Of a DNA stretch of 64,000 bases, positions 44,084 through 59,476 are shown piece after piece. The number at the start of each line of letters is the position of its first letter. Position 1 is the first letter of the stretch. A program made the position numbers and the translations under genes. Below the pieces are notes generated by a model. It worked only from the letters and a program-made list of their open reading frames with translations. It searched no databases and was not told where the DNA came from. This DNA is from Elusimicrobiota bacterium (GTDB lineage: Bacteria > Elusimicrobiota > Elusimicrobia > Elusimicrobiales > UBA9959): assembly GCA_026388155.1 (NCBI GenBank), contig JAPLKI010000022.1, positions 310,001 through 374,000 on the forward strand, in the 5' to 3' direction.

Positions 44084-44962
44084 ATGAATGAGTTCCGATT
44101 TATGAATAAAATCTTCCAAAGTAACGATTTCATATGTACCCGATTTTTATTTTTTATACCCGGCAGATCTAAATACGAAAGATTGAAAAACAGGGTGCGC
44201 CGTTTCCCGGCTTTTTTGAATTTTAAAAAGTCCGTAAAAACGCTCATTTCTGCTTTCCGTTTCTCAATTATGCTGCCTATGATGCACAAACAGAAAGAAC
44301 TCATTATTATCGTTCCGTTCCGCAACCGCGAAGAAAATCTTAAACAGTTTGTGCCATATATGCGTCATTTCCTGAAAGACGTCAAACACCGCATCGTAGT
44401 GGTAGAGCAGACAGAGGATGGATTGTTCAATAGAGCCAAATTACTGAATGTCGGTTTTAGTCTGTATCAGGACGCAAATGCTTATTTTTGTTTTCATGAT
44501 GTCGATATGCTGCCGGCATCCGCATTATGCGATTACTCTTATCCCGTCATGCCAACTCATCTTTCCGTTTACTGTTCACAGTTTGAATATCAGTTTGTTC
44601 CTCATTATTTCGGGGGCGTTCTTTTGGTTAATAAAGAAGACTTTCTGAAACTTAACGGATTTAGCAATCAATACTGGGGGTGGGGAGCTGAGGACGATGA
44701 TTTAAGAAGGAGGTTCGAGCGAACTTGGACCATCCCCTGGACCCGGAGGATGGGCAGGTATCATTCCATCGAGCAGGTAGCTTTTGGCCATCCCCGCGCT
44801 CATGAAGCTGTTAAGCGCAGCGGAAATCCGCAATATCTGAAAAATTGCATGCGCCTGATGTCGGGTTACGATTCAAAAACTGACGGCCTGTCCGATCTGA
44901 AGTTCGAGCTTCTCGAAACGATCGCTGGAGACGGATTCGTCAAACACATTGTCCGTCTTTGA
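44084..44962 (+). CDS. GT7-type galactosyltransferase-like protein, copy 1
   Basis: A 292-residue protein whose core strongly recalls animal beta-1,4-galactosyltransferases (GT7). Motifs: IVPFRNREENLKQF, LFNRAKLLNVGFSLY, the metal-binding FCFHDVDMLP (DVD at about 140-142), HYFGGVLLVNKEDF, NGFSNQYWGWGAEDDDLRRR, and a C-terminal SKTDGLSDLKFELLE. It would transfer a sugar, galactose by analogy, from UDP-sugar to a glycan. No signal peptide; a hydrophobic stretch near residues 20-27 is weak. The start is uncertain (44084 or 44102). A tandem paralogue follows. The gene is AT-richer than the genome backbone and is the first in the tRNA island. Confidence 0.82.
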   Translation: MNEFRFMNKIFQSNDFICTRFLFFIPGRSKYERLKNRVRRFPAFLNFKKSVKTLISAFRFSIMLPMMHKQKELIIIVPFRNREENLKQFVPYMRHFLKDVKHRIVVVEQTEDGLFNRAKLLNVGFSLYQDANAYFCFHDVDMLPASALCDYSYPVMPTHLSVYCSQFEYQFVPHYFGGVLLVNKEDFLKLNGFSNQYWGWGAEDDDLRRRFERTWTIPWTRRMGRYHSIEQVAFGHPRAHEAVKRSGNPQYLKNCMRLMSGYDSKTDGLSDLKFELLETIAGDGFVKHIVRL

Positions 44963-45017
44963 GAACAACAAGGTTTGTTAACGGGAAGATTAAAACGAAT
45001 ATTTATTATTTAATTTT

Positions 45018-45833
45018 ATGCTCAGCGTATCTCAATACGAAAGATTGAAAAGATTGAAAAACAGAGCGCGCCGTTTCCCGGCTTTTTTGAATTTTAAAAA
45101 GTCCGTAAAAACGCTCGTTTCTGTTCTTCGTTTTTCAATTATGCTGCCTATGATGCACAAACAGAAAGAACTCATTGTTATCGTTCCATTCCGCAACCGC
45201 GAAGAAAATCTGAAACGGTTTATCCCGCATATGCAGCATTTCCTGAGGGACGTCAAATACCGCATCGTAGTGATCGAACAGACAGGGGATGGCTTATTCA
45301 ATAAAGCTAAATTACTGAATGCGGGTTTTAGTCTGTATCAGGATGCAAACGCCTATTTTTGTTTTCATGATGTGGATCTGCTGCCGGAATCCGCGTTATG
45401 CGATTACTCTTATCCCGTCATACCAACCCACCTTTCCGTTTACTGTTCACAGTTTGACTATCAGGTTGCCGCTTATCACTTCGGGGGCGTTATTTTGGTG
45501 AATAAAAGGGACTTTCGGAGAGTTAACGGATGCAGCAATCAATACTGGGGGTGGGGAGCGGAGGACAGTGATTTAAGAAAGAGGTTCGAGCGAACTTGGA
45601 CTATCCCCTGGACCCGGAGGATGGGCAGGTATCATTCCATCGAGCAGGTAGCTTTTGGCCATCCCCGCGCTCATGAAACTTTTAAGTGCCGCGGAAATCC
45701 GCAATATCGAAAAAATTGCATGCGCCTAATGTCGGACTACGATTCAAAAACTGACGGCCTGTCCGATCTGAAGTTCGAGCTTCTCGAAACGATCGCTGGA
45801 GACGGATTCGTCAGACATATTGTCCGTCTTTGA
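45018..45833 (+). CDS. GT7-type galactosyltransferase-like protein, copy 2
   Basis: A 271-residue paralogue of the preceding gene, alike over nearly its whole length in protein and DNA, so the pair arose by recent tandem duplication. It keeps PFRNREENLK, HDVDLLPE, HFGGVILVN and QYWGWGAED, but the acidic triplet is now EDSD instead of EDDD, and FSNQ became CSNQ. That change may alter the acceptor or the catalytic acid. The N-terminal 17 residues differ from copy 1. The stop is followed within 10 bases by the GT4 gene, so they are probably one transcript. Confidence 0.82.
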   Translation: MLSVSQYERLKRLKNRARRFPAFLNFKKSVKTLVSVLRFSIMLPMMHKQKELIVIVPFRNREENLKRFIPHMQHFLRDVKYRIVVIEQTGDGLFNKAKLLNAGFSLYQDANAYFCFHDVDLLPESALCDYSYPVIPTHLSVYCSQFDYQVAAYHFGGVILVNKRDFRRVNGCSNQYWGWGAEDSDLRKRFERTWTIPWTRRMGRYHSIEQVAFGHPRAHETFKCRGNPQYRKNCMRLMSDYDSKTDGLSDLKFELLETIAGDGFVRHIVRL

Positions 45834-45844
45834 GAAAGATTAAA

Positions 45845-47043
45845 ATGAATATTTGTTATTTAATACGTTCCTTCAGCAATCAGGCGGGAACGGAGAGTTA
45901 CGTTTATTATATGTCAAGAGCTTTGGCCGAACTGGGACACCAGGTGCATATTATCAGTTTAACCGGAAAAGGACAGAGGGACTTTAGTGGTTTTGAAGGT
46001 AAAATATTTGTCCATCATTTAAATTTCAAACGAGCATCTTTTAAGGGTTCTTGGCTATTAGAAAATGTCTTTCCTCTGGATACATGGCGTTATGGACAAT
46101 TTATTAATAAAATTCTGCCTGATTTGATCGATAAACATGCTATTGACATAATTGAAGCCACAGATTGGGGGATAGATGCCTGGGCTTATTTAACCGAACG
46201 GAAAGTGCCTGTTTGTGTAAGACTTCACGGTTACCCCGGTTTTAAAGATGATTTTGACCGGGGGATATTAAAAAAATGGCCTAAAAACTATTTTCTCTGG
46301 TCTTTATTCAGAAAACACCTTTCAGGCGCGGATCTTGTGACGGGAGTATCGGAATCTTACACTGACTTCGTGCGGAATGCCTGGGAATTAAAAGAAAGAG
46401 ACGTTCAAATTATTCCCATCAGCGTTAATTTAAATGTTTTCCGCCCGGCGGAAGCTTCCAGGGAAAATCAGGCAATTCTATTCGCGGGCAGACTGGAAAA
46501 GTCTAAAGGCATAGAGGTGCTCGCGCAGGCGATTCCTTTGGTTTTAAAAGAATTACCGGGCGCCAGATTTTATTTGGCTGGCCGGGATTATAAATACATG
46601 GACAGCCGACAGACATGGTCGCAATATTTAATGGAAAATTTTGGCAAGGGAAGAATTATTTATTTAGGCTCCCTGCCCACGCAGGAATTGGTGCATTATT
46701 ATCAATCAGCAACTATTTGTGTTGTGCCCTCGCTGTATGAGCCTGGAGGAACAGCGGTCTTTGAGGCTATGGCTTGCGGCTGTCCCGTTATCGCCAGCAA
46801 GGTGGGCGGCCTTGTTGAGATTATTAAAGACGGGCGAACAGGAGATCGCTGATCCCGCCTGCTGAGGCCCAGGCCCTTGCCGATGCAATAATTGAATTGC
46901 TTCAAAAACCCCAGATGAGGCATGAAATCTCACAAAACGCTCTTGAATCTATACGAAAAAATTTTGACATAAACAACATCGTCCGGCCAACACTGGATGC
47001 TTACACGCGAACGATCGGGTTTTTTAAAACCCGCAAAACTTAA
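45845..47043 (+). pseudogene. GT4-family glycosyltransferase, frameshifted near the C-terminus
   Basis: The frame from ATG 45845 reads MNICYLIRSFSNQAGTES and contains GT4 signatures: CVRLHGYP, GVSESYTDFV, LFAGRLEKSKGIEVL, and the EPGGTAVFEAMACGCPVIAS donor-site motif with its two Glu residues. It stops at 46852 just after VEIIKDGRTGDR. A one-base shift near 46845-46851 restores the normal continuation IPPAEAQALADAIIELLQK through to 47043. So this is one GT4 gene broken by a single indel, or an assembly error. If real, the last 60 or so residues (the terminal helix crossing back to the N-domain) are lost. Confidence 0.8.
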
Positions 47044-48007: not shown

Positions 48008-49963
48008 GTGAGCGCAATATTTGGAGTAATAAACTGGAACGATCAGCCGGTCAGTGCGAACGACCTGGAGCGGATGCGCGCGGCCCTGGCGGCACACGGC
48101 GCAGACGGCGGAGGTATCTGGAACCGCGGGTCCGCGGGGCTGGGACAACAACTGATGTGTTTTACTCCCGAAGATCGCTTTGAGCGGCAGCCGTTGGCCG
48201 GCGCGGACGGGCAGCGCGTCCTGGTCAGCGATGGACGTCTTGACAATCGCCCTGAGTTGATGCGCGAACTGGGCGGCGCGCCGTTGGATACGCGCGAGGC
48301 GCCGGATTCGGATTTTATTTTGCGCGCGTACAATAAATGGGGCGAAGATTGTATGCGCCATCTAATCGGGGTTTTTGCGTTTGCGGTGTGGGATGCGCGC
48401 GCCCAAACTCTTTTCCTCGCGCGGTCGCCTATTGTCGCGCCCCAGCTTCTTTATTGGGCCGCTCCGTCCAGACTGGCGTTCGCCACTACGGTCCGGGCGT
48501 TGTGCGCATTGCCTTTCGTTCCGCGCGCGCTCAACGAGGAAAAATTGGCCGACTTTCTCGTGGATTTGGGAGGCAAACCGCGCACCACCCTTTATCGCGA
48601 TATTTATCGCCTGCCTACCGGACATCTGCTTGCCGCCGGCCGGAATGGATTCAAGACACGGTGTTTTTGGCAACCCGATCTGCAACGTGAGATTCGCTTT
48701 CCGCGCGACACGGATTACCTTGCCGCGTTTGACGAACTGTTCACGCGCGTTGTGCGCGATAATATGCGCAGTAGTGCGCCGGTCGGCGCGATGATGAGCG
48801 GCGGATTGGATTCTTCGTCGCTGGCGGTGACGGCGGCGCGTTTGCTCAGGCCGCAAGGCAAACGCCTGGCAACGTTTACCGAAGTGCCGCGCGCCGGTTT
48901 TGACGGTCCTGTGCCGGCCGGACGTTATGCCGACGAGACGCCTTTGGTTCAGGCGATTGCCCGGACATACGATAATCTTGACCTGAACCCGGTGCATACC
49001 GATGGCCGCACATTCCTGGACGACCTCGACCGGCTCTTTTTCAATCTGGAAGGCCCGTTTCGCAACACAGCAAATCGCGTGTGGATCGAAGCGATCTTGC
49101 AAGCGGCGCGCCAGCGCGGGATCGGCGTCATTCTGGATGGCATGCAGGGCAATTTAACGGTCAGTTGGGAAGGCAGCGGTTTGTTGCCGGAACTGCTGCG
49201 CGGCGGGCGCTGGGCCCGGGCTTTGCGCGAGGCGCAGGCGTCTGCGAGGCAAAACGCAAACCGTTCATCCCTGCGTATATTGGTTGGGCAGGGCGTCATG
49301 CCGCTCCTGCCGGCGCCGTTGAGGCTGGCTATCAACTGGTTGCGTGGTAAGCCGGAAAACAGAATTACTCAGCATTGGCGCGACTTCTCTTCCATTCATC
49401 CCGACTTTGCGGCCGCGTACAAGGTGGATGCGCGCGCCCGTGAGCAGAGATACGATTTTCGCATTCGCTCCATGCCGGCCAGTCGTCAGATCCGTTATGA
49501 TGCGCTTGTCGCGCAGGATTTAGGAGCCTTTATCACCGCCTTCCGCGCAATGTTCGGCGTGGATTCCCGCTCGCCGCTTGCCGATGTGCGCTTGGCCGAG
49601 TTCTGCCTCGCTCTGCCGGAGGACCAGTTCCTGCGCGACGGCGAACCGCGTTCGCTCATACGCCGGGCCATGGCAGGCCGTCTGCCGCCGGAGGTGCTCT
49701 CGAACCGCAAGCGCGGCCTGCAGGCGGCGGATTGGTTTGAAGAATTGAGCGGCGTCCGCGCGGAATTGCCGGCGGAGCTGGACCGGCTGGAAAAGTGCGG
49801 CCTGGCGCACCGCGCGTTGGACCTGCCGCGGCTGCGCCGGCTGGTCGAATACTGGCCGAAGGGCGGCTACGACCAGGTCCAAGTAACGCGTGAGTATAGT
49901 TGTATTCTGGAACGCGGCCTGATGGCTGGGCGCTTCCTGCGGTGGTTTGAGGAGCAAGGATGA
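48008..49963 (+). CDS. Lasso peptide cyclase (asparagine-synthetase-like, lasso C protein)
   Basis: GTG start at 48008 after GAGGAG (47994-47999). 651 residues. The N-terminal glutaminase-like domain opens MSAIFGVINW: the catalytic Cys2 of AsnB is Ser, so it cannot use glutamine like AsnB. The synthetase domain has the ATP loop GAMMSGGLDSSSLAV (about 261-275). This combination beside PqqD, B2 protease and exporter genes fits the lasso cyclase, which adenylates the Asp/Glu side chain and closes the macrolactam on the core N-terminus. The kinase gene overlaps its stop (ATGA). The gene is GC-rich with many GCGCGC runs, unlike the AT-rich genes before it. Confidence 0.85.
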   Translation: MSAIFGVINWNDQPVSANDLERMRAALAAHGADGGGIWNRGSAGLGQQLMCFTPEDRFERQPLAGADGQRVLVSDGRLDNRPELMRELGGAPLDTREAPDSDFILRAYNKWGEDCMRHLIGVFAFAVWDARAQTLFLARSPIVAPQLLYWAAPSRLAFATTVRALCALPFVPRALNEEKLADFLVDLGGKPRTTLYRDIYRLPTGHLLAAGRNGFKTRCFWQPDLQREIRFPRDTDYLAAFDELFTRVVRDNMRSSAPVGAMMSGGLDSSSLAVTAARLLRPQGKRLATFTEVPRAGFDGPVPAGRYADETPLVQAIARTYDNLDLNPVHTDGRTFLDDLDRLFFNLEGPFRNTANRVWIEAILQAARQRGIGVILDGMQGNLTVSWEGSGLLPELLRGGRWARALREAQASARQNANRSSLRILVGQGVMPLLPAPLRLAINWLRGKPENRITQHWRDFSSIHPDFAAAYKVDARAREQRYDFRIRSMPASRQIRYDALVAQDLGAFITAFRAMFGVDSRSPLADVRLAEFCLALPEDQFLRDGEPRSLIRRAMAGRLPPEVLSNRKRGLQAADWFEELSGVRAELPAELDRLEKCGLAHRALDLPRLRRLVEYWPKGGYDQVQVTREYSCILERGLMAGRFLRWFEEQG

Positions 49964-50949
49964 AACACCCCCGCCGCAGCATGAAACGATATTGTTACGA
50001 TTATTTCGGACTGCGCATCCGTTCGGAAATTGAAATCCCCGATTGGCTCCCTTTTAGGAAAGACGAGGAGCTTAACTTTCCCGATGTTGTCATCAGCCTG
50101 AATATCGACGCGGCCGCACACCTGCCGGAAAGCGAAAGCCGGCCTGTAGTCGACGCACAGGCCTATAGCTTTCATATTCCCGGAACCGGAGGCTATTTGG
50201 TGCATCACGGACGTGAGATAGTAATCACACCCGCGTCGAGCGCGCAAGCGCGCGAACTGCGCCTGTTTTTGCTCGGCTCGGCGTGGGGCGCGCTCTGTTA
50301 TCAGCGCGGTTTGCTCGCGCTCCACTCCAGCGCCGTGCAGGTTGGCGATCAGGCCGTCGTGTTTTGCGGTGAAGCCGGATCCGGCAAATCATCGGCTGCC
50401 GCATGGCTGATCGCGCGCAGCCATCGCTTTGTAGGAGATGATCTGTGTCTCTTCGGTGTCGCCGCCGGACAGGCGAGCGTTTATCCCTCGTCGCCGCGCT
50501 TGAAACTGTGGCGCGAGGCGCTGGGTGCGCTGGGCTTAAGCGACGAAGGCCTGGAGCGCGATCATTTCCGGTTGGACAAGTTCCACTTGCCGCGGCGCAG
50601 CGCGCTCACGCCATTGCCCGTGCGCGCCATCTATCTGCTCGAATGGGGCGAACCGGGTTTGAGACGCTTGACCGGCGTGGATGCGTTGCGCCGTTTTATT
50701 ATCTCCGCAACCTATCGCGGCGACCTGCTTGAGCCGATGGGACAGGTTGCCGCGCATTGGGAACGCTGCGCCGAACTGGCGCGGGGCGTGCCGGTCTGGG
50801 TATTTTCCCGTCCGCGGGATTGGCCGGAGATGGACGCGGCGATGCGCTTGTTGCAGGCGCATTTGCGCAATAGCGTCCGCCTAAGGCGGAAAGCTGGAGG
50901 GATATGCCGGACTTGCGGACCGCGCCGGAGAAAAATAAAATCCGATTGA
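49960..50949 (+). CDS. HPr-kinase-like lasso peptide tailoring kinase
   Basis: A 329-residue protein resembling the C-terminal domain of HPr kinase. The P-loop is CGEAGSGKSSAA (about 137-148), preceded by GLLALHSSAVQVG and followed by FVGDDLCLF, the HPrK-type acidic motif. The N-terminal 100 residues are a separate domain seen in RiPP-associated members. In paeninodin-type clusters such a kinase phosphorylates the C-terminal Ser of the precursor; the precursor here also ends in Ser. The start overlaps the cyclase stop by four bases. The C-terminal 25 residues are basic and Cys-containing and look atypical, perhaps a read-on past the original end. Confidence 0.82.
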   Translation: MKHPRRSMKRYCYDYFGLRIRSEIEIPDWLPFRKDEELNFPDVVISLNIDAAAHLPESESRPVVDAQAYSFHIPGTGGYLVHHGREIVITPASSAQARELRLFLLGSAWGALCYQRGLLALHSSAVQVGDQAVVFCGEAGSGKSSAAAWLIARSHRFVGDDLCLFGVAAGQASVYPSSPRLKLWREALGALGLSDEGLERDHFRLDKFHLPRRSALTPLPVRAIYLLEWGEPGLRRLTGVDALRRFIISATYRGDLLEPMGQVAAHWERCAELARGVPVWVFSRPRDWPEMDAAMRLLQAHLRNSVRLRRKAGGICRTCGPRRRKIKSD

Positions 50950-50975: not shown

Positions 50976-51056
50976 GCCAAGCGCGGCAAAAATGAGCAGT
51001 TCGGCCAACTGGACAGCGAACTGTTTGCAATTCAGATCAATATCTATGGAGGTTAA
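50976..51056 (+). pseudogene. Truncated pqqD (lasso B1) remnant
   Basis: In this frame the DNA encodes KRGKNEQFGQLDSELFAI and then stops at 51054. It matches residues 15-31 of the intact PqqD-like protein at 54965 (KRGKDVPFSQLDDELLAI). Only the first strand pair survives. The DNA runs straight into the GT2 gene, whose upstream start candidates overlap it in another frame. Confidence 0.65.
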
Positions 51057-51057
51057 G

Positions 51058-52173
51058 TTGCGTTCCCTGCCCCTTATATCAGTGGTGATGCCGGTCCATG
51101 ACCGCGCGCGGTATGTGGCCGAGGCGGTCAATTCGATTTTGGCGCAGACTTATCCCCATTTTGAGCTCATCATCGTGGACGATGGATCCACCGATGAGTC
51201 GCCGGAAATTGTGCGGGCGCTTGCCGCGCGCGATCCCAGGATTCGCGCGCTGTTTTCGCCGCATTACAGCCAGGGACGCGCGCGCAATGCCGGGATTGCG
51301 CTGGCGCGCGGCGAATACATCGCTCACATGGACGACGATGATGTCGCGCTGCCGGACCGGCTTGCCGCCCAACTGGACTGGATGCACCTCACCGGCGTGG
51401 ATATTTGCGGCGGCTGCTCGCAAGCGTTCGGAGACAGCCATGGCCTGTTATGGTTTCCCGAGACGCACGAAGCCATCCGCAATGAACTGGTCTTTCGGTG
51501 TGGATTTCTTCAAGGAACCGTGTTAATGCGCGCGGATATCGCGAAGGCGCATCCCTACGATGAGCAGGCGTCCTTCGAAGACTATGAACTGTGGACCCGG
51601 CTCGCTCCGCTCTACCGCATGGGAAACTTGCCCCGGATTCTGCTCAGGGAACGCTTCCACCCGCAACAGATCCATAAGGCGAAGGCGGTTGAGCTTTGCG
51701 CAGACTGGCGGAAGTATTGCGAGCGTTATTTGTGCGCCCTGTTCCCCCAGGCGACACCGGCGGAGCGCGCCATAATCGCCCGCGCCGCGGCGGGAGAGCC
51801 TTTCACGCGCCTGGAGGAGCTGGAGGAGGCCGGCAGGTGGCTGGCGCGCCTGTCGCAAACGCCGGACGCGTTCCTGCGCCGGCGTATGGCGGACCGCTGG
51901 TTTGCGGTTTGCCGGAGGTCGGCGCCCCTGGGGTTGGCTTGTCATCGGCTCTACCGGCGGCTCACGCCGCAGTTCAACATTACCACCGGCCAGGGGACGT
52001 TCAAGTTATGGCTGGCGTGCGGCTTGCGGCTCAAGCCGGACTCCGGACTTTACGCCGCGCTGACGGCATGCAAACGCAGAATTGCACATCCGCAATGGTT
52101 TTCAAGCAAGGCGGATAAAGCGTTTTTCTTAACGAAGCCGCATTCCCCTACAACAAACCGAACGGTTGAGTGA
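51058..52173 (+). CDS. GT2-family glycosyltransferase in the lasso cluster
   Basis: I place the start at TTG 51058 because GGAGG (51048-51052) lies five bases upstream; ATG 51046 or 50992 are alternatives. 371 residues. GT-A motifs: LISVVMPVHDRARYV, FELIIVDDGSTDESPEI, GRARNAGIALARGEYIAHMD and the metal-binding MDDDDVALPDR. ASFEDYELWTRLAP is the usual acceptor-side acidic motif. The C-terminal 150 residues are helical with many Arg and Trp. The gene interrupts the lasso cluster between the kinase and the PqqD gene. It could glycosylate the peptide or belong to the island's glycan genes; sequence does not decide. Confidence 0.82.
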   Translation: MRSLPLISVVMPVHDRARYVAEAVNSILAQTYPHFELIIVDDGSTDESPEIVRALAARDPRIRALFSPHYSQGRARNAGIALARGEYIAHMDDDDVALPDRLAAQLDWMHLTGVDICGGCSQAFGDSHGLLWFPETHEAIRNELVFRCGFLQGTVLMRADIAKAHPYDEQASFEDYELWTRLAPLYRMGNLPRILLRERFHPQQIHKAKAVELCADWRKYCERYLCALFPQATPAERAIIARAAAGEPFTRLEELEEAGRWLARLSQTPDAFLRRRMADRWFAVCRRSAPLGLACHRLYRRLTPQFNITTGQGTFKLWLACGLRLKPDSGLYAALTACKRRIAHPQWFSSKADKAFFLTKPHSPTTNRTVE

Positions 52174-52456
52174 TAAACGTTGCCCGCTCCCTAGCCTTAT
52201 ATTTTTCTTCAAAATAACTCAGAACTGTCCGAAAATTAGTTAAAGGCCAACGCCTTTGATCATGCGACGCTTGAGCATGTACTCTAACAATAAAATCATT
52301 TTCCGTAAAAGCATTTACCGTCCAAAAATTCTCTGCAAGGGCTTGCTCTTTTCCTGTAAAGAAGATCTGTGGGGTTTTAAACTTTTCTGAAAGATTGAGA
52401 GAAATCTTTAGCTGAAATGGCGCACTCAATTTTTCAATTTTACACCCATAGAACAC
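52148..52456 (-). CDS. Small hypothetical protein downstream of the HAD gene
   Basis: A 102-residue frame that overlaps the end of the HAD-type gene by 31 bases and the end of the GT2 gene by 26. It is AT-rich like the HAD gene and has protein-like composition (KTPQIFFTGKEQALAENFW, then RWPLTNFRTVLSYFEEKY). No family or membrane segment is recognised. It may be a real gene or the displaced end of a longer acquired gene. Confidence 0.35.
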   Translation of the reverse strand: MFYGCKIEKLSAPFQLKISLNLSEKFKTPQIFFTGKEQALAENFWTVNAFTENDFIVRVHAQASHDQRRWPLTNFRTVLSYFEEKYKARERATFITQPFGLL

Positions 52457-54495
52457 ATTTTTTGAGCAAAGATCTTAAATTTTGAAGAAAGAAATATTTT
52501 ATTTATCAGGTTACTGCGAGCCCATGTTCCCCGCCACCAAAAGGTCATATTCATTGATTTGCAACGGTCTAAAAAATGAAATCTGAGCGCCTCCATGACA
52601 GAGAATGGCGGAGCAAACCTCCTCATTACGGTTTCTGTTTGATCGCCGCTAAAACGATAGTCACCAAGTGCCTCCGCCTCTTCTCTCGACGGATCATTCA
52701 TTAAACACTTCATTAATTCGCAACTTCTCCTTTTATATTCTTCCAAAAACAATTCATTTAATCTTAAATCATTAATGAAATCGGTTGGGATCGTCTTAAG
52801 AAAATACTGGTACCCAGAACGAAGATGATCTAATCCCCATTCTTTAATATTGTAGTGGTTCATATTATTAAATCTAGGGCATGGCTTATCTTCTTCTCCA
52901 TAACAATAAGACATAACAGAGCCGTGGTATGCAGTTGTAAAGATTTCAAAAAAATTTATAGCTTGAAATCCCGTACTATAAACAAAGTGGGGGGATTTTT
53001 CCGAAAAGAAAAAACTATCTTTTTTATTTGTATCGTTTTCAATAAATATATTCCCTTTTATTATTCCAAAATAAAATCCGTGAATTGCGGTAGCGGCATA
53101 GCCTGCATAATTCAGGATTTCACGTAGTGCGGATTGGAGATGCCCCATCCAACCCAAATCGACGATCCCCCAGCGGATTTTATCAAAAAAACCAGCTTGC
53201 TGAAAATAATCGGCCGCAGCGATTTTCGCCTTCTTTGCATTATTGAGAATTAATGATGACAACAATGGGCCTTTAATTAAACCAATAAGGTGAGCTCTCT
53301 CTTGAGGATTCAGATTTTTATTGGTATTAATTCTTCTATGCGCTACGGTTTGAAGTTCTTTTTGCACTACAGCAGGATTTAAGCCCACTCTTCGGGCAAA
53401 TATATTAATGGAACAATATGGGTCTTGTGACATCATCCAGGAAAGCGCATTTTTGTTGATTTCACTTAATCCCGGCAATGAAAGCGCTTGTCTTGAGGCA
53501 TACAAATACCTCAATTCGATATTCATGCCTAATGCGCCGTTCACGTATTTTGCTATCTCCAAGAGTATTTGGCCATCGCGCGAAAGAAAATATAACCGCT
53601 GTATATTGTTTTTCTTCGCTTCTCGCAAGAGCCAAATTACATATATAAGAAAAATCGGACAAGCAATACTGCCTCCAAGGTTAGACAGAGTGCGATAGCG
53701 GGTAGTTTTTATGTGCGAGTTTAACCGAACCAAACGAGAAGCTCCGGCAATTATTTGCCAAACATAATTAGAGGGATGACCGCTAGGACCATACCGTGAC
53801 CCGTAAAGAAGTATGTTTTCGTATCTGCTGAGCTGAGTATCGCTGTAATAAAGCGTTTTGATGCCTGCTTTCCCGGCCTGTAATATATCAACGTGAAAAT
53901 TGTCCCCTATATGCACCATATCGCGCGGTGAACAACCCTCGAGAAGAAGAATTTTCTTAAATAATTTACCTGACGCTTTTGTAATTAATAACTCACTCGA
54001 ACAGTAAAGAGCCGCATCCGCCTTATACACCCCAAAAGTTACAAGAATCTTTTTAATTGCATCTTTAGGCAAATATGTGTCCGAAGTAAAAATTATTCGT
54101 TTATTTTTCTCGTATAAAGAATTTAAAAGATGGACCATCTGCGGCACAGGTCGAGTCTCTTGCAGCTCCTGGTCAATCTCTAAGGACGCCAGCGAATCCC
54201 GAATGTTATGCGATAGATTAAATTTTTGCGCCACTATTCCGTAAATTTCATCAAGCGTCACTTCTTCATTGCGGGTAATCCTCCGAGCCTCCTGTTCTGC
54301 CATGATACGTATTTCAGTAAAATTCTCCGTTAACTGTTTGGGCAAGCAATCATTCTTCTCTAATAGTACTTTTTGAATGATCATAAATAGGCCTATTGGA
54401 GTAGCTGTTCTTCTGGTCGCCACGGTATCAAAGACATCAAAGCTATACACCTTAAAATGCGACTGCAGGATATTATCAAAATTTATTGCAGCCAT
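52426..54495 (-). CDS. Large HAD-type protein, glycan-cluster family
   Basis: A 689-residue protein. Residues 15-225 are a HAD phosphatase-like domain: FDVFDTVATRR with Asp20 and Asp23, IIFTSDTYLPKD (motif II), KASGK (motif III Lys) and VHIGDNFHVDILQA (motif IV). The remaining 450 residues (YFLSRDGQILLEIAKYVN, GIVDLGWMGHLQSALREIL) match a C-terminal region common to large HAD proteins found in polysaccharide gene clusters, whose activity is unknown to me. The gene is markedly AT-rich and runs against the lasso genes around it, so it is a separate insertion. It splits the lasso cluster. Confidence 0.75.
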   Translation of the reverse strand: MAAINFDNILQSHFKVYSFDVFDTVATRRTATPIGLFMIIQKVLLEKNDCLPKQLTENFTEIRIMAEQEARRITRNEEVTLDEIYGIVAQKFNLSHNIRDSLASLEIDQELQETRPVPQMVHLLNSLYEKNKRIIFTSDTYLPKDAIKKILVTFGVYKADAALYCSSELLITKASGKLFKKILLLEGCSPRDMVHIGDNFHVDILQAGKAGIKTLYYSDTQLSRYENILLYGSRYGPSGHPSNYVWQIIAGASRLVRLNSHIKTTRYRTLSNLGGSIACPIFLIYVIWLLREAKKNNIQRLYFLSRDGQILLEIAKYVNGALGMNIELRYLYASRQALSLPGLSEINKNALSWMMSQDPYCSINIFARRVGLNPAVVQKELQTVAHRRINTNKNLNPQERAHLIGLIKGPLLSSLILNNAKKAKIAAADYFQQAGFFDKIRWGIVDLGWMGHLQSALREILNYAGYAATAIHGFYFGIIKGNIFIENDTNKKDSFFFSEKSPHFVYSTGFQAINFFEIFTTAYHGSVMSYCYGEEDKPCPRFNNMNHYNIKEWGLDHLRSGYQYFLKTIPTDFINDLRLNELFLEEYKRRSCELMKCLMNDPSREEAEALGDYRFSGDQTETVMRRFAPPFSVMEALRFHFLDRCKSMNMTFWWRGTWARSNLINKIFLSSKFKIFAQKMCSMGVKLKN

Positions 54496-54964: not shown

Positions 54965-55288
54965 ATGGGACCCGCAACCAAAATAAATTCCGCCAACATA
55001 ATCAAGCGCGGCAAAGATGTGCCGTTCAGCCAGTTGGACGACGAACTGCTGGCCATCGACGCGCAGGCCGGTTATTGCTATTCGCTCAATGAAACGGCGG
55101 GGAGAGTGTGGGAGTTGATATCCGCCCCTATGCCGGTCAGCGCGGTGTGCGCGCAATTGCGGCAGGAGTTCGCGGTGGACGAGGCAACTTGCCTGCGCGA
55201 GACGCTCGCGCTGTTACAGGCGCTTTGTGACGCAGAACTAGCGCAGGTAATCGGCGAAGCGCCCGGCCGGGCTTCAACGGCGCCATGA
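54965..55288 (+). CDS. PqqD-family RiPP recognition protein (lasso B1)
   Basis: A 107-residue protein with GGGAGG upstream. It has the PqqD winged-helix pattern: IIKRGKDVPFSQLDDELLAI, the beta hairpin AGYCYSLNETAGRVWELI, and a C-terminal helix pair EATCLRETLALLQALCDAEL. In lasso systems the free-standing B1 protein binds the precursor leader, usually through a [Y/W]xxP motif, and delivers it to the B2 protease. The precursor 160 bases downstream has WRTP. A truncated relative lies at 50976, suggesting duplication or rearrangement of the cluster. Confidence 0.85.
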   Translation: MGPATKINSANIIKRGKDVPFSQLDDELLAIDAQAGYCYSLNETAGRVWELISAPMPVSAVCAQLRQEFAVDEATCLRETLALLQALCDAELAQVIGEAPGRASTAP

Positions 55289-55402: not shown

Positions 55403-55448
55403 GTTTGGTCAAAGATATTGAAAATTTAATTATTACATGGAGGACAAC

Positions 55449-55622
55449 ATGCAAGAGAAAGAACCCATTCGAACTCAGAATGAAGCGGTTGTTCCGAGCG
55501 TGGTTGAAACAGTGAATCGTTCCACACTCCGCCCCTGGCGCACGCCGACCTTAGAGCGCATACCCTTGAATGAAGCGCTTTCGGGCTCGGGGCAGGGAGT
55601 TGATGCGGGGTTAACGTCCTAA
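55449..55622 (+). CDS. Lasso peptide precursor
   Basis: ATG 55449 has TGGAGG five bases upstream; the ATG at 55437 overlaps that site and is not used in my reading. 57 residues: a 44-residue leader and a 13-residue core. The leader ends WRTPTLERIPLNEAL, closely like the paeninodin leader, with the [Y/W]xxPxL recognition motif. The predicted core is SGSGQGVDAGLTS: Ser1 to Asp8 would form an eight-residue ring, leaving a five-residue tail ending in Ser, the site phosphorylated in paeninodin-type peptides. The usual Thr at leader position -2 is Ala. A core starting at the following Gly (ring of seven) is the alternative. Confidence 0.72.
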   Translation: MQEKEPIRTQNEAVVPSVVETVNRSTLRPWRTPTLERIPLNEALSGSGQGVDAGLTS

Positions 55623-55804
55623 GAGAGCGCTTTTCAGATGTTGGCGGATGGAACGATCTCGCCAACGCGCCCGCGGAGATGCGGCGGCGCAACGCGGCAT
55701 TTCTGCTGACGGCCGCGAAACTGATGATGTGCTTGCGGAAGCATTTTGAAAAGCCCAAAACAGCAGAAAAAAGAGATGCTGAAACCCGGATTGATATATG
55801 TGGG
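55623..55804 (+). other. Short unassigned open frame between precursor and B2 gene
   Basis: A frame open from the precursor stop encodes a stretch containing MRRRNAAFLLTAAKLMMCL and ends at 55804, overlapping the B2 start in another frame. It has no ribosome-binding site. It may be the remnant of a gene, or just spacer. Nothing else is seen in this gap. Confidence 0.3.
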
Positions 55805-56325
55805 TAAAGCAAAGACTGGTCAGATTCCGCCGGTTTTCACCGCCGGTCCGCAGCTATCTGCTTGAGGTAATATCCTGTCTGATTCTCGCCCGTCTGTCCC
55901 TGCGGGTGATTCCTTTTAGATGGTTGACATCGTATTTCAAGCGTCCGGCTGAATTACCGGAAGCCTCTTATGCCCGGCGTGAGCGGATATGGAAATCATC
56001 TTTATTAAGATCCTACACGCCGCACAAGGAGAAGATTACCGGCGACGAGCGCAAGCGATTGCGCGAGGGAATACAAGGGCTAATTAACGAGGCGGCATGG
56101 TTTCTGCCGGGTGAAACGGCGTGTTTTGCGCGCGCGATCGCCGCGCAGAGCATACTGCGCCGGCTTGGCATAGGAACGACCTTATACTATGGCGCCGCAA
56201 CACACTTCGCCGGCGGCTTAACCGCCCATGTTTGGCTGCAGGATGGCGCAGTGGGTGTTATCGGGTACGACACGGCGCAGCGCTACCACATTCTGGCGCG
56301 CTATCCGGATAAAAGCCGGGAATGA
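55798..56325 (+). CDS. Lasso peptide B2 leader protease (transglutaminase-like)
   Basis: A 175-residue member of the lasso B2 family. The catalytic Cys is Cys109 in FLPGETACFARAIAA, the His is His144 in GGLTAHVWLQDG, and an Asp follows at 149 or 158. The N-terminus (YLLEVISCLILARLSLRVI) is a hydrophobic helix, as in many B2 proteins. It cuts the leader off the precursor before cyclisation. The ABC exporter gene begins 14 bases after its stop. No strong Shine-Dalgarno precedes the ATG. Length is slightly above the usual 140-160 residues. Confidence 0.85.
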   Translation: MWVKQRLVRFRRFSPPVRSYLLEVISCLILARLSLRVIPFRWLTSYFKRPAELPEASYARRERIWKSSLLRSYTPHKEKITGDERKRLREGIQGLINEAAWFLPGETACFARAIAAQSILRRLGIGTTLYYGAATHFAGGLTAHVWLQDGAVGVIGYDTAQRYHILARYPDKSRE

Positions 56326-56339
56326 AGGACTGGTAACGG

Positions 56340-58160
56340 ATGATCAAGCAGCTTGCCGACGCGGCCGGGCGGCTCCGGCAACAGCTCCCCTATCTGCCAC
56401 AGGCTTTTAAACTGATCCGGCGGGCGGCCGGAGGATTGGCTGTTGTTTGGGCGGCCCTGCTCCTGGTCCAGGGTCTGCTGCCGGTCGCCACGGTATATCT
56501 GACCCGGACGCTTGTGAACGGAATTGCTGCGATGATCGGCGCCGGAGGCGGATGGGGGGCCATGCGGCCGCTGCTTCCGGCGGGCGCTGCCATGGTCCTG
56601 GTGCTGATCGGAATGGAAGTGTTTCAGAGCATCGGCAGATGGGTCAGCGTCGCCCAGGCGGAGCGCGTGCAGGACCGCGTTCAGCAACTCATCCATCAGC
56701 AGGCCATGCGGCTCGATCTCTCTTTTTACGACGATCCCGGTTACTACGATCAACTCCACCGCGCCCGGATAGACGCCCTTAGCCGGCCGGCCCTCCTGCT
56801 GGAAAACGCGGGCGCCCTGCTGCAAAGCCTTGTCACTTTGGCCGCGATGGGGGGAGTTCTTCTTACCTTCGGGGTATGGATACCCCTGTTGCTGGCGTTC
56901 AGCACCCTGCCCGCACTTTTGGTAGTGCTCCGCCACACGCTCCGCTTTCATCGCTGGCGGATCCAAAACACCACGGCCATCCGCAAAACAAGTTACTATG
57001 ATATGTTGCTCACCCAGAGGGAGGCGGCGGCTGAAATGCGGCTGTTCGGCCTTGGCTCGTATTTCAGGACGCTTTTTAAAAATTTGAGTAAACGATTGCG
57101 CCATGAGCGGGTAGAGCTTGCCCGCAGCGAAACAGTCGCACAGGCCACTGCGGCTCTTATCGGGCTGGGGAGTATGGCCGGAGCTCTTGCCTGGATGGGC
57201 CGTCAGGCCTTAAAAGGCGCGGTCCGGCTGGGGGACCTGGCCCTTTTTTATCAGGCATTTTTCCAGGGTCAGCGCATGCTGCGTTCGCTTTTGGGCAGCG
57301 CCGGAGAGATTTACCGCAACATGATGTTTTTGGAAAATCTGTTTGAATTTCTGGCCCTTGAGCCCCGGATCGGCTCTCCGGAAATACCGCTTCCCCATCC
57401 CGGTCTGCGAAAAGAAATAGAGTTTCAAAACGTCACTTTCCGCTACTGCGGCATGACGCAGCCCGCCCTGGAGCGCTTCAATCTGCGGATTGCGGCAGGG
57501 CAGATCACGGCGCTGGTGGGCGAGAACGGCGCCGGCAAAACAACCCTGATCAAACTCCTCTGCCGTTTTTATGATCCTGAAAAAGGACGACTGCTCATCG
57601 ATGGAACGGACATCCGCTCCCTTTCTATTCCGGGGCTGCGGCAGCGGATCACCGTGCTTTTTCAGGACCCGGTGCGCTATCATGACACGGTCTTCAATAA
57701 TATCGCTTTCGGGGACATTGACAGCCGTCCGGATATGGACCGGATTGCCGCGGCAGCCCGGGCCGCAGGGGCGGATGCACCTATCAGCCGGTTGCCCGGC
57801 GCCCACGAAGCCGTGCTGGGGAAATGGTTCGGCGGCGCCGAACTGAGCGGCGGCGAGTGGCAGCGCCTGGCCCTGGCGCGCGCCTTTCTTAGAAACGCGG
57901 AACTCATTATACTGGATGAGCCGACCAGCGCTATGGATTCTTGGGCGGAAGCTGACTGGCTGCTGCGTTTTCGCCAGCTCACCGCCGGCCGGACAGCCCT
58001 GATCATCACCCATCGCTTCACGACCGCCTTACAGGCGGATGTAATTCATGTTATGGATAGCGGCCGCATCGTTGAATCCGGCAGCCACGAAGAACTGTTG
58101 GCAGCCCAGGGGCGCTATGAAAAATCCTGGACCCGGCAGATGCGGGGAAAAAATAATTAA
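56340..58160 (+). CDS. ABC exporter of the lasso cluster (lasso D)
   Basis: A 606-residue half-transporter: six membrane helices (about 25-320), then an ATPase domain with Walker A GENGAGKTT (about 394-402), signature LSGGEWQRLALARAF (about 502-516), Walker B LIILDEPTSAMD, and ITHRF as H-loop. It would work as a homodimer exporting the mature lasso peptide and giving self-immunity. No C39 peptidase domain is present, as expected because leader removal is done by B2. It lies between B2 and the nucleotidyltransferase on the same strand. Confidence 0.9.
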   Translation: MIKQLADAAGRLRQQLPYLPQAFKLIRRAAGGLAVVWAALLLVQGLLPVATVYLTRTLVNGIAAMIGAGGGWGAMRPLLPAGAAMVLVLIGMEVFQSIGRWVSVAQAERVQDRVQQLIHQQAMRLDLSFYDDPGYYDQLHRARIDALSRPALLLENAGALLQSLVTLAAMGGVLLTFGVWIPLLLAFSTLPALLVVLRHTLRFHRWRIQNTTAIRKTSYYDMLLTQREAAAEMRLFGLGSYFRTLFKNLSKRLRHERVELARSETVAQATAALIGLGSMAGALAWMGRQALKGAVRLGDLALFYQAFFQGQRMLRSLLGSAGEIYRNMMFLENLFEFLALEPRIGSPEIPLPHPGLRKEIEFQNVTFRYCGMTQPALERFNLRIAAGQITALVGENGAGKTTLIKLLCRFYDPEKGRLLIDGTDIRSLSIPGLRQRITVLFQDPVRYHDTVFNNIAFGDIDSRPDMDRIAAAARAAGADAPISRLPGAHEAVLGKWFGGAELSGGEWQRLALARAFLRNAELIILDEPTSAMDSWAEADWLLRFRQLTAGRTALIITHRFTTALQADVIHVMDSGRIVESGSHEELLAAQGRYEKSWTRQMRGKNN

Positions 58161-58186
58161 GAATTCAAAACTGTATTCATTTGGCG

Positions 58187-59476
58187 ATGTCTATGGAAAC
58201 GATGGAACAGAAGTATTGCAGGCTCCTGATTGATTGTTTAAAGAATGATAAAACAGGATTAGATGTCGCCCGGCTTTCAAGTCTTTCAACGGAACATTGG
58301 CAAGCCTTTCTAGCTTTGGCAAAAACGCAGCGGGTCATGCCCCTGCTGTGGCATCGGCTCAGGCAAAAAGGGCTGGAGAGGGCAGTGCCTGCTGCAGCGG
58401 CAAAAGCCTTTCGGGAGGCTGCCCGCCGCAACACCCTGCATAACCTGCGATATTACGGAGAATTGCGGCTCCTTTTGTCCGCCATGAAGCGTGAGGGAAT
58501 GCCGCTGATCCTGCTTAAGGGTATATATCTGGCGGAAGCGGTTTACGACGAAGTCGGGCTTCGGGAAATGAACGATATCGATGTGCTGGCCCGCCCCGCA
58601 GATCTTACGCGGATTTCGGATATCCTGGCGGCTATGGGCTACACGCCGCTCCAGCCTATTTGCGCGGATACCACCCTCAAGATGCATCATCATCTGCCCC
58701 GCATGGTCAAGAATGGTTATGCTTCTTTTGAAATACACTGGAACCTTACAGGTCCGGGTAAAAGCTACAGCATGGATCCCGGCGGCTTATGGAAGCGCGC
58801 CGTGCCTGGTCAGATTACCGGTTGCGATGCGTTGTCGCTTGCGCCTGAAGACCTGCTCCTGCATCTTTGCCTACACACCTCCTACCACCACCAGTTCGCT
58901 TTTGGGTTGCGCCCTTCCTGCGATATCGCGGAAACCATTCTCCGCTTCGGTTCCGCGCTTGACTGGCAGACTGTTGCGGAACGGGCTGTCAGCCAAGGCT
59001 GGCAGAGGGGCGTTTACCTGGCTCTGCGGCTGGCGGGGGAATTGGCAGGCGCGTCTGTGCCGGACGATATCCTGGCCAGGCTGCGGCCGGCGGATATGGA
59101 GGAAGCTGTTCTGGAGACCGCCCGCGCCCAGGTGTTCACCGACAAAAGCTTTGCCTTCTCGGTGCCCGTGTCTTTTGCGGAACTTCTGAACAGCAAACGC
59201 CTTTGGGATAAAATCCGTATTTTCTGGCAGCGGGTTTTTCTGCCCCGGCCCGTTATCGCCGAGCAATATTCGGTCCCGATGGATTCTGTAAAAATTTACG
59301 GCTGTTATCCGCGCCGCTTTATTGATGTGCTGCGCCGGCACGGCCGCACGCTGAAAAAGTTCCATGAAAATGATGCCCTGCTGAAAGCTCTTGTTGCCCG
59401 TACGAATCATATCGCAAACTGGCTGGCCGGGCCGACAGAGGAACCGGTGGGCCGCTCCCCGCGGCATAGCCGGTAA
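58187..59476 (+). CDS. Nucleotidyltransferase-family protein of the lasso cluster
   Basis: About 429 residues; TTG 58181 is an alternative start. The nucleotidyltransferase fold is shown by LILLKGIYLAEAVYDEVGLR, the metal-binding EMNDIDVLARPADL and FEIHWNLTGPGKSYS. PEDLLLHLCLHTSYHH follows, typical of the PF14907-type proteins near RiPP genes. In the pseudomycoidin system such an enzyme is reported to add phosphate groups to the C-terminal end of the peptide. With the kinase at 49960 this predicts a multiply modified C-terminal Ser. The function here is by analogy only. Confidence 0.78.
   Translation: MSMETMEQKYCRLLIDCLKNDKTGLDVARLSSLSTEHWQAFLALAKTQRVMPLLWHRLRQKGLERAVPAAAAKAFREAARRNTLHNLRYYGELRLLLSAMKREGMPLILLKGIYLAEAVYDEVGLREMNDIDVLARPADLTRISDILAAMGYTPLQPICADTTLKMHHHLPRMVKNGYASFEIHWNLTGPGKSYSMDPGGLWKRAVPGQITGCDALSLAPEDLLLHLCLHTSYHHQFAFGLRPSCDIAETILRFGSALDWQTVAERAVSQGWQRGVYLALRLAGELAGASVPDDILARLRPADMEEAVLETARAQVFTDKSFAFSVPVSFAELLNSKRLWDKIRIFWQRVFLPRPVIAEQYSVPMDSVKIYGCYPRRFIDVLRRHGRTLKKFHENDALLKALVARTNHIANWLAGPTEEPVGRSPRHSR

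Follow-up and report, generated by a model that had tools for sequence, protein, structure and literature searches.

The window analysed here, a stretch of 64,000 nucleotides, is part of contig 22 of an Elusimicrobiota genome (3.36 Mb, 97% complete). It contains a complete lasso cluster: precursor, cyclase, kinase, RRE, B2 protease, exporter and nucleotidyltransferase. Table 1 gives these genes and their motifs, which are observed directly. The class II lasso gene set (precursor, B1/RRE, B2 and asparagine-synthase-like cyclase) is encoded together, with the precursor gene sitting between the RRE and B2 genes, and the kinase retains its catalytic residues (His, Lys, Asp-Asp).

Table 1. Genes and motifs of the lasso cluster, in window coordinates
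Feature	Coordinates	Strand	Remarks
Lasso cyclase, asparagine-synthase-like	48008..49963	+	SGGLDS motif; starts MSAIFG, no Cys2
HprK-like peptide kinase	49960..50949	+	His122, Gly142, Lys143, Ser144, Asp160, Asp161 present
Family 2 glycosyltransferase (GT2)	50992..52173	+	
B1/RRE, PqqD-like	54965..55288	+	PF05402 E 1.4e-14; NF033536 lasso_PqqD_Bac E 9e-13, under its cut-off
Precursor peptide A, 57 aa	55449..55622	+	Leader 55449-55580; predicted core SGSGQGVDAGLTS 55581-55619; stop 55620-55622
WxxP leader motif (WRTP), W(-15) to P(-12), predicted RRE-bound	55536..55547	+	Alignment and PbaA numbering
B2 leader protease	55798..56325	+	NF033537 above cut-off; PF13471
ABC exporter, MsbA-like	56340..58160	+	
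Nucleotidyltransferase, PsmN/LppN-type	58181..59476	+	PF14907 NTP_transf_5 E 2.6e-65; TTG start as listed

The RRE, HprK-like kinase, nucleotidyltransferase and MsbA-like exporter are also found in clusters for linear polyphosphorylated peptides (LPPs). However, an LPP cluster lacks a cyclase and encodes an SpI-like peptidase, whereas the window has both a cyclase (48008-49963) and a B2, and the LPP family was rejected for this reason; no SpI-like leader peptidase was found among the cluster genes scanned with Pfam/NCBIfam.

On the opposite strand within the lasso operon, positions 52426-54495 (-) encode, at about 40% GC, a protein of 689 aa carrying a HAD domain at its N-terminal end; the flanking lasso genes are at 60-61% GC, and no counterpart of this gene was seen within the related clusters L012 (Elusimicrobia) and L016 (Chloroflexota). 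The region just upstream (44084-46852) holds a GT4 glycosyltransferase and two family-7-type galactosyltransferases, with a GC content of 43-44%; this is reminiscent of the polysaccharide loci in which paeninodins and LPPs have been described.

The precursor and its predicted core

The open reading frame 55449-55622 (+) translates to MQEKEPIRTQNEAVVPSVVETVNRSTLRPWRTPTLERIPLNEALSGSGQGVDAGLTS. A GGAGG Shine-Dalgarno sequence lies at normal distance just 5' of the ATG at 55449. The other in-frame ATG, at 55437, gives a longer leader and the same core: the start affects the leader only, and the longer core that the initial annotation had envisaged through another start codon is ruled out. When the Ser of SGSG is counted as residue 1, the Trp of the WxxP motif is at -15, as in PbaA, the crystallised paeninodin-type precursor (PMC13381572). 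This spacing, shared with paeninodin-like leaders, yields the core SGSGQGVDAGLTS, with a Ser1-Asp8 ring, an AGLTS tail and a C-terminal Ser13. An alignment with nine kinase-cluster precursors places Trp at -15, Pro at -12 and the Ala of the window in the Thr(-2) column. Core, ring and the Ala that replaces the conserved leader Thr, all three proposed in the initial annotation, are thus borne out.

Asp is the single acid among the last 15 precursor residues; it is residue 8 of the predicted core, or 7 or 9 for neighbouring cuts, and is capable of forming a macrolactam. Consequently, whatever the cut, lasso rings of 7, 8 or 9 residues correspond to cores of 12, 13 or 14 residues, which rules out a longer core through another cut, and the post-ring segment is AGLTS at every allowed cut, so that its shortness is independent of the exact position. 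This segment has no aromatic or basic residue, and its largest side chain is Leu. The tail had been described as five small residues: five there are, one of which, Leu11, is medium-sized.

The kinases of the window, L012, L016 and L017 fall into a single clade, and all four loci have Ala at -2, which occurs also in L127, L138 and L150. Since published phosphorylated lassos have Ile or Val at -2 (PMC10368454), a missing Thr(-2) is not disqualifying: Thr is customary there but not indispensable.

In random sequences with the composition and length (64 kb) of the window, the pattern W/YxxPxL with a plausible -2 residue and an acid at 7-9 is matched 1.07 times on average, and 0.10 times with a final Ser. 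The pattern alone is thus not significant, and the case rests on the RRE/B2 context and on the cognate precursors of L012 and L016. A pattern search yielded no second precursor in the window cluster, and a weak whole-genome match on contig 16 was discarded (internal stop codons, 38% identity).

Relatives and known systems

The same genome carries, on contig 7, a second lasso cluster with its own RRE, cyclase, kinase and B2. Its two precursors end in SGSGIAKTDAGIYS and VSINGGKGADLGSYS, both with a Tyr directly before the terminal Ser (AGIYS, LGSYS). The initial annotation had raised the eventuality of a more typical second precursor elsewhere in the genome; the contig-7 cores are short too. The nearest named relative carrying a window-type cluster is an uncultured Elusimicrobia bacterium, and a genome of the same family, G041, has orthologues of both clusters, with precursor ends ...KAAL GVGSGSASTDSFGSAS for the window type and ...RKTE VGPPNFGTTDMGMYS for the contig-7 type. 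Beyond the phylum, the closest relative is the Chloroflexota cluster L016, with precursor ...KEAL TGDGPINEDDAFTSYS. Among 340 Elusimicrobiota genomes, B2 was found in 5, of which 3 are above the cut-off.

Both L012 and L016 share with the window Ala(-2)-Leu(-1), a C-terminal Ser and the WxxP motif, and their kinases are respectively 57% and 47% identical to that of the window. Unlike the window, they have post-ring segments SFGSAS and about DAFTSYS, cores of about 15-16 residues, and a precursor gene placed after B2. At the aligned cut, the orthologue L012 has a 10-residue ring, which makes the cut site in the window's clade uncertain. The canonical -2 Thr/Ala puts the ring Asp at residue 10 in L010:7452-7631, L011:7082-7252 and L012:10462-10644: either these precursors are cleaved by B2 one or two residues further on, or their rings count 10 residues and exceed the known range of 7-9.

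In each of the two genomes, the two lasso clusters were found to have a single intact ABC exporter between them. Here it belongs to the window cluster (56340-58160), and the contig-7 cluster has a 62-aa N-terminal remnant (L010:11950-12135); in G041 the situation is reversed: the intact exporter lies in the contig-7-type cluster (L011:1005-2822), and of the window-type copy there is a remnant of 29 C-terminal aa (L012:5244-5330). Inside the lasso cluster, L010:7728-8861 and L011:5857-6975 each encode a fusion of a PqqD-like RRE domain with a TylF macrocin O-methyltransferase, possibly a tailoring enzyme so far undescribed for lasso peptides.

Paeninodin and pseudomycoidin (PadeK/PsmK/PsmN, Bacillota) have in common with the window the split B1/B2, cyclase, HprK-like kinase, exporter and C-terminal Ser, and pseudomycoidin also the nucleotidyltransferase; unlike the window, they have cores of 23-24 residues, His/Tyr-containing tails and Thr(-2). 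The spacing of the WxxP leader is that of the paeninodin type. Paeninodins are described as restricted to Bacillota (PMC13381572), whereas the window cluster lies in Elusimicrobiota. The Bsf type (BsfA/BsfK, Bradymonadales) resembles the window by its kinase cluster, non-Thr -2 residue and predicted 8-residue ring, and differs from it by Ile(-2), a YxxP leader, a phosphorylated Ser3, a C-terminal Asp and a 21-residue predicted core.

Short cores and plug-poor tails

The initial annotation put the minimum at about 14 core residues. This is incorrect, as the huascopeptin core counts 13 (PMC12427821) and cores in a 2026 review span 13-33 residues (PMC13352647). Huascopeptin, GYGNAWDSKNGLF, is a very small lasso like the window core. 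Unlike that core, it has a Gly1-Asp7 ring and a 6-residue post-ring segment with Lys and Phe, and phosphorylation is absent from its review descriptions. Five further 13-residue cores with 8-residue rings are predicted in kinase-bearing clusters of Chloroflexota and Alphaproteobacteria: AGPTPITEPTSSS and SGATPITEGGVSS in L138, TGVAYGSDGNCGS in L128, and GGIRGTSDGYCVS and GGVLNGYDGYCGS in L130. Ten precursors of kinase-bearing clusters, including that of the window, have a 5-residue post-ring segment (L010b and L011 were entered with a cut one residue past the aligned position, which leaves this length unaffected); among the characterised kinase-free lasso peptides (n = 53) the minimum is 6. 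The qualification "unusually short" is thus weakened, both by huascopeptin and by the recurrence of 13-residue cores with 5-residue tails in kinase-bearing clusters. Several precursors of L124, L128 and L130 have a single Cys close to the C terminus (GNCGS, GYCVS, GYCGS, GIGCVS, GVGCAS), with L128 and L130 each having two of them.

If the plug is the modified Ser, plug-poor tails are expected in kinase clusters only. Three sets were compared, the precursors being pattern-picked and hand-curated: 42 kinase-associated precursors ending in Ser, whose cores and cut sites are predictions; 37 predicted kinase-free precursors, mostly from Sphingomonadales and mostly with fused B proteins; and the 53 characterised kinase-free peptides, taken from Table 1 of PMC12427821. 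The residues scored are those of the tail beyond ring acid +2. The L140 candidates, whose ring residue is unclear, and near-duplicate review entries (e.g. siamycin II, lariatin B) were left out.

A C-terminal Ser is found in 42 of 56 kinase-associated precursors, and in none of 90 kinase-free ones. Tails without any of F, W, Y, R, K and H number 16 of 42 in the kinase-associated set, the window among them, against 4 of 37 in the predicted kinase-free set (Fisher, p = 0.0086) and 0 of 53 in the characterised one (p = 3e-7): all peptides of this last set, which is biased toward stable threaded peptides, have at least one such residue beyond ring acid +2. When M, I, L and Q are added to the list, the counts become 13/42 versus 0/37 and 0/53 (p = 1.1e-4 and 7e-6), where about 3 would be expected from tail length alone; the window, owing to its Leu, is outside these 13. 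With the same wider list, matching for length (post-ring <=9) gives 12/27 versus 0/25 (p = 1.1e-4), and keeping one precursor per locus gives 10/37 versus 0/29 (p = 0.0017), the loci being related and not phylogenetically independent. Computed as a fraction per tail position, aromatic/basic residues show no difference from the predicted kinase-free set (p = 0.21); the wider bulky class differs (p = 6e-9).

The association between plug-poor tails and kinases is sound as a description, not a proof of cause. Its recurrence suggests, at the level of sequence, that a phosphorylated or phosphoglycosylated C-terminal Ser may help lock the knot. An aromatic or basic tail residue is still present in 26 of the 42 kinase-associated precursors, so the kinase is not merely a substitute plug. 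The phospho-Ser plug imagined in the initial annotation thus gains comparative support, tails without any bulky residue being confined to kinase-bearing clusters, but the window's own tail keeps a Leu.

What may lock the tail

It is with middling confidence that we take the product to be a paeninodin-like class II lasso, among the shortest predicted cores, with the modified Ser13 as its plug. The RRE would bind the WRTP leader motif, and the HprK-like kinase would phosphorylate the C-terminal Ser13 of the linear precursor, as PadeK does with its own substrate (PMC9266682). B2 would then cut after Leu(-1), with Ala standing for Thr at -2, and the cyclase would link the Ser1 amine to Asp8 round the prefolded AGLTS tail. 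A sugar would be put on the phosphate by the nucleotidyltransferase, possibly helped by the glycosyltransferase (PsmN is responsible for one or two hexoses there; PMC9266682), and the ABC protein would export the product. Phosphorylation would probably come first, followed in turn by leader removal, cyclisation, sugar addition and export. We infer these steps from homology, and with them the cleavage site, phosphorylation, threading and plug role. Since the tail has no aromatic or basic residue, the modified Ser13 would plug the ring from below, and Leu11/Thr12 would lie above it.

BsfK and LppK both act on core Ser3, of BsfA (PMC10368454) and of LppA (PMC13381572), and the window core has a Ser3 (S-G-S-G); phosphorylation there, leaving the C-terminal Ser free, would be compatible with the other readings. 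However, the kinase tree sets the window kinase well apart from BsfK and among kinases whose precursors end in Ser, and the precursor alignment shows an invariant terminal Ser and a variable position 3 (Asp in L016; Ile or Asn and Pro in contig-7-type cores). Tree and alignment both disfavour Ser3 as the target, which we judge very unlikely.

Threading, too, can be doubted. A post-ring segment of 5 residues, below the minimum of 6 among characterised kinase-free peptides, may not thread, and Leu is the largest residue that it offers. The product may then be an unthreaded, branched-cyclic (lariat) phosphopeptide, in which Ser1-Asp8 is closed and the tail never threads or slips out, phosphate and sugar serving other ends, e.g. 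export, self-protection or envelope attachment. Linear LPPs, with the same kinase, nucleotidyltransferase and exporter and no cyclase (PMC13381572), indicate that these modifications need no lasso fold. Against this, a lasso cyclase preorganises its substrate before ring closure (PMC13352647), and the contig-7 precursors keep a Tyr before the terminal Ser, as expected if the plug position matters there; we regard a lariat as somewhat unlikely. The Leu of the window could also be a plug by itself. A minimal ordinary lasso, for which Leu11 or Thr12 is enough and phosphorylation is incidental to threading, would be favoured especially by a cut one residue later, giving a 12-residue core with a tighter Gly1-Asp7 ring: this is the ring type of huascopeptin (PMC13352647, reference list), and a cut after Ser places at -2 a Leu conserved in the window, L012 and L016. 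But the alignment sets Ala under Thr(-2) and W at -15 as in PbaA, and comparable tails (GGVSS, PTSSS, GATTSS) lack even a Leu, which makes this reading rather improbable.

The observation itself is real as read from the sequences: the cluster is paeninodin-like, lies in a phylum other than Bacillota, and has Ala(-2) with a predicted core of minimal size. The range of kinase-type lasso clusters grows to include Elusimicrobiota and Chloroflexota. We tentatively conjecture, as a possibility short of even, that a widespread kinase-associated subgroup, with cores of 13-14 residues and tails of about 5 residues without bulky side chain, swapped the plug for a modified C-terminal Ser, giving a bond that is locked by an enzyme and perhaps unlockable. 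Phosphorylation is among the lasso modifications whose role is unresolved (PMC9266682), and a nearly plugless tail with a dedicated kinase offers a clean test of its purpose: a phosphate lock predicts a product that unthreads once the kinase is removed. No lasso peptide in the comparison would then have a shorter post-ring segment than that of the window, whose stopper would be made by an enzyme.
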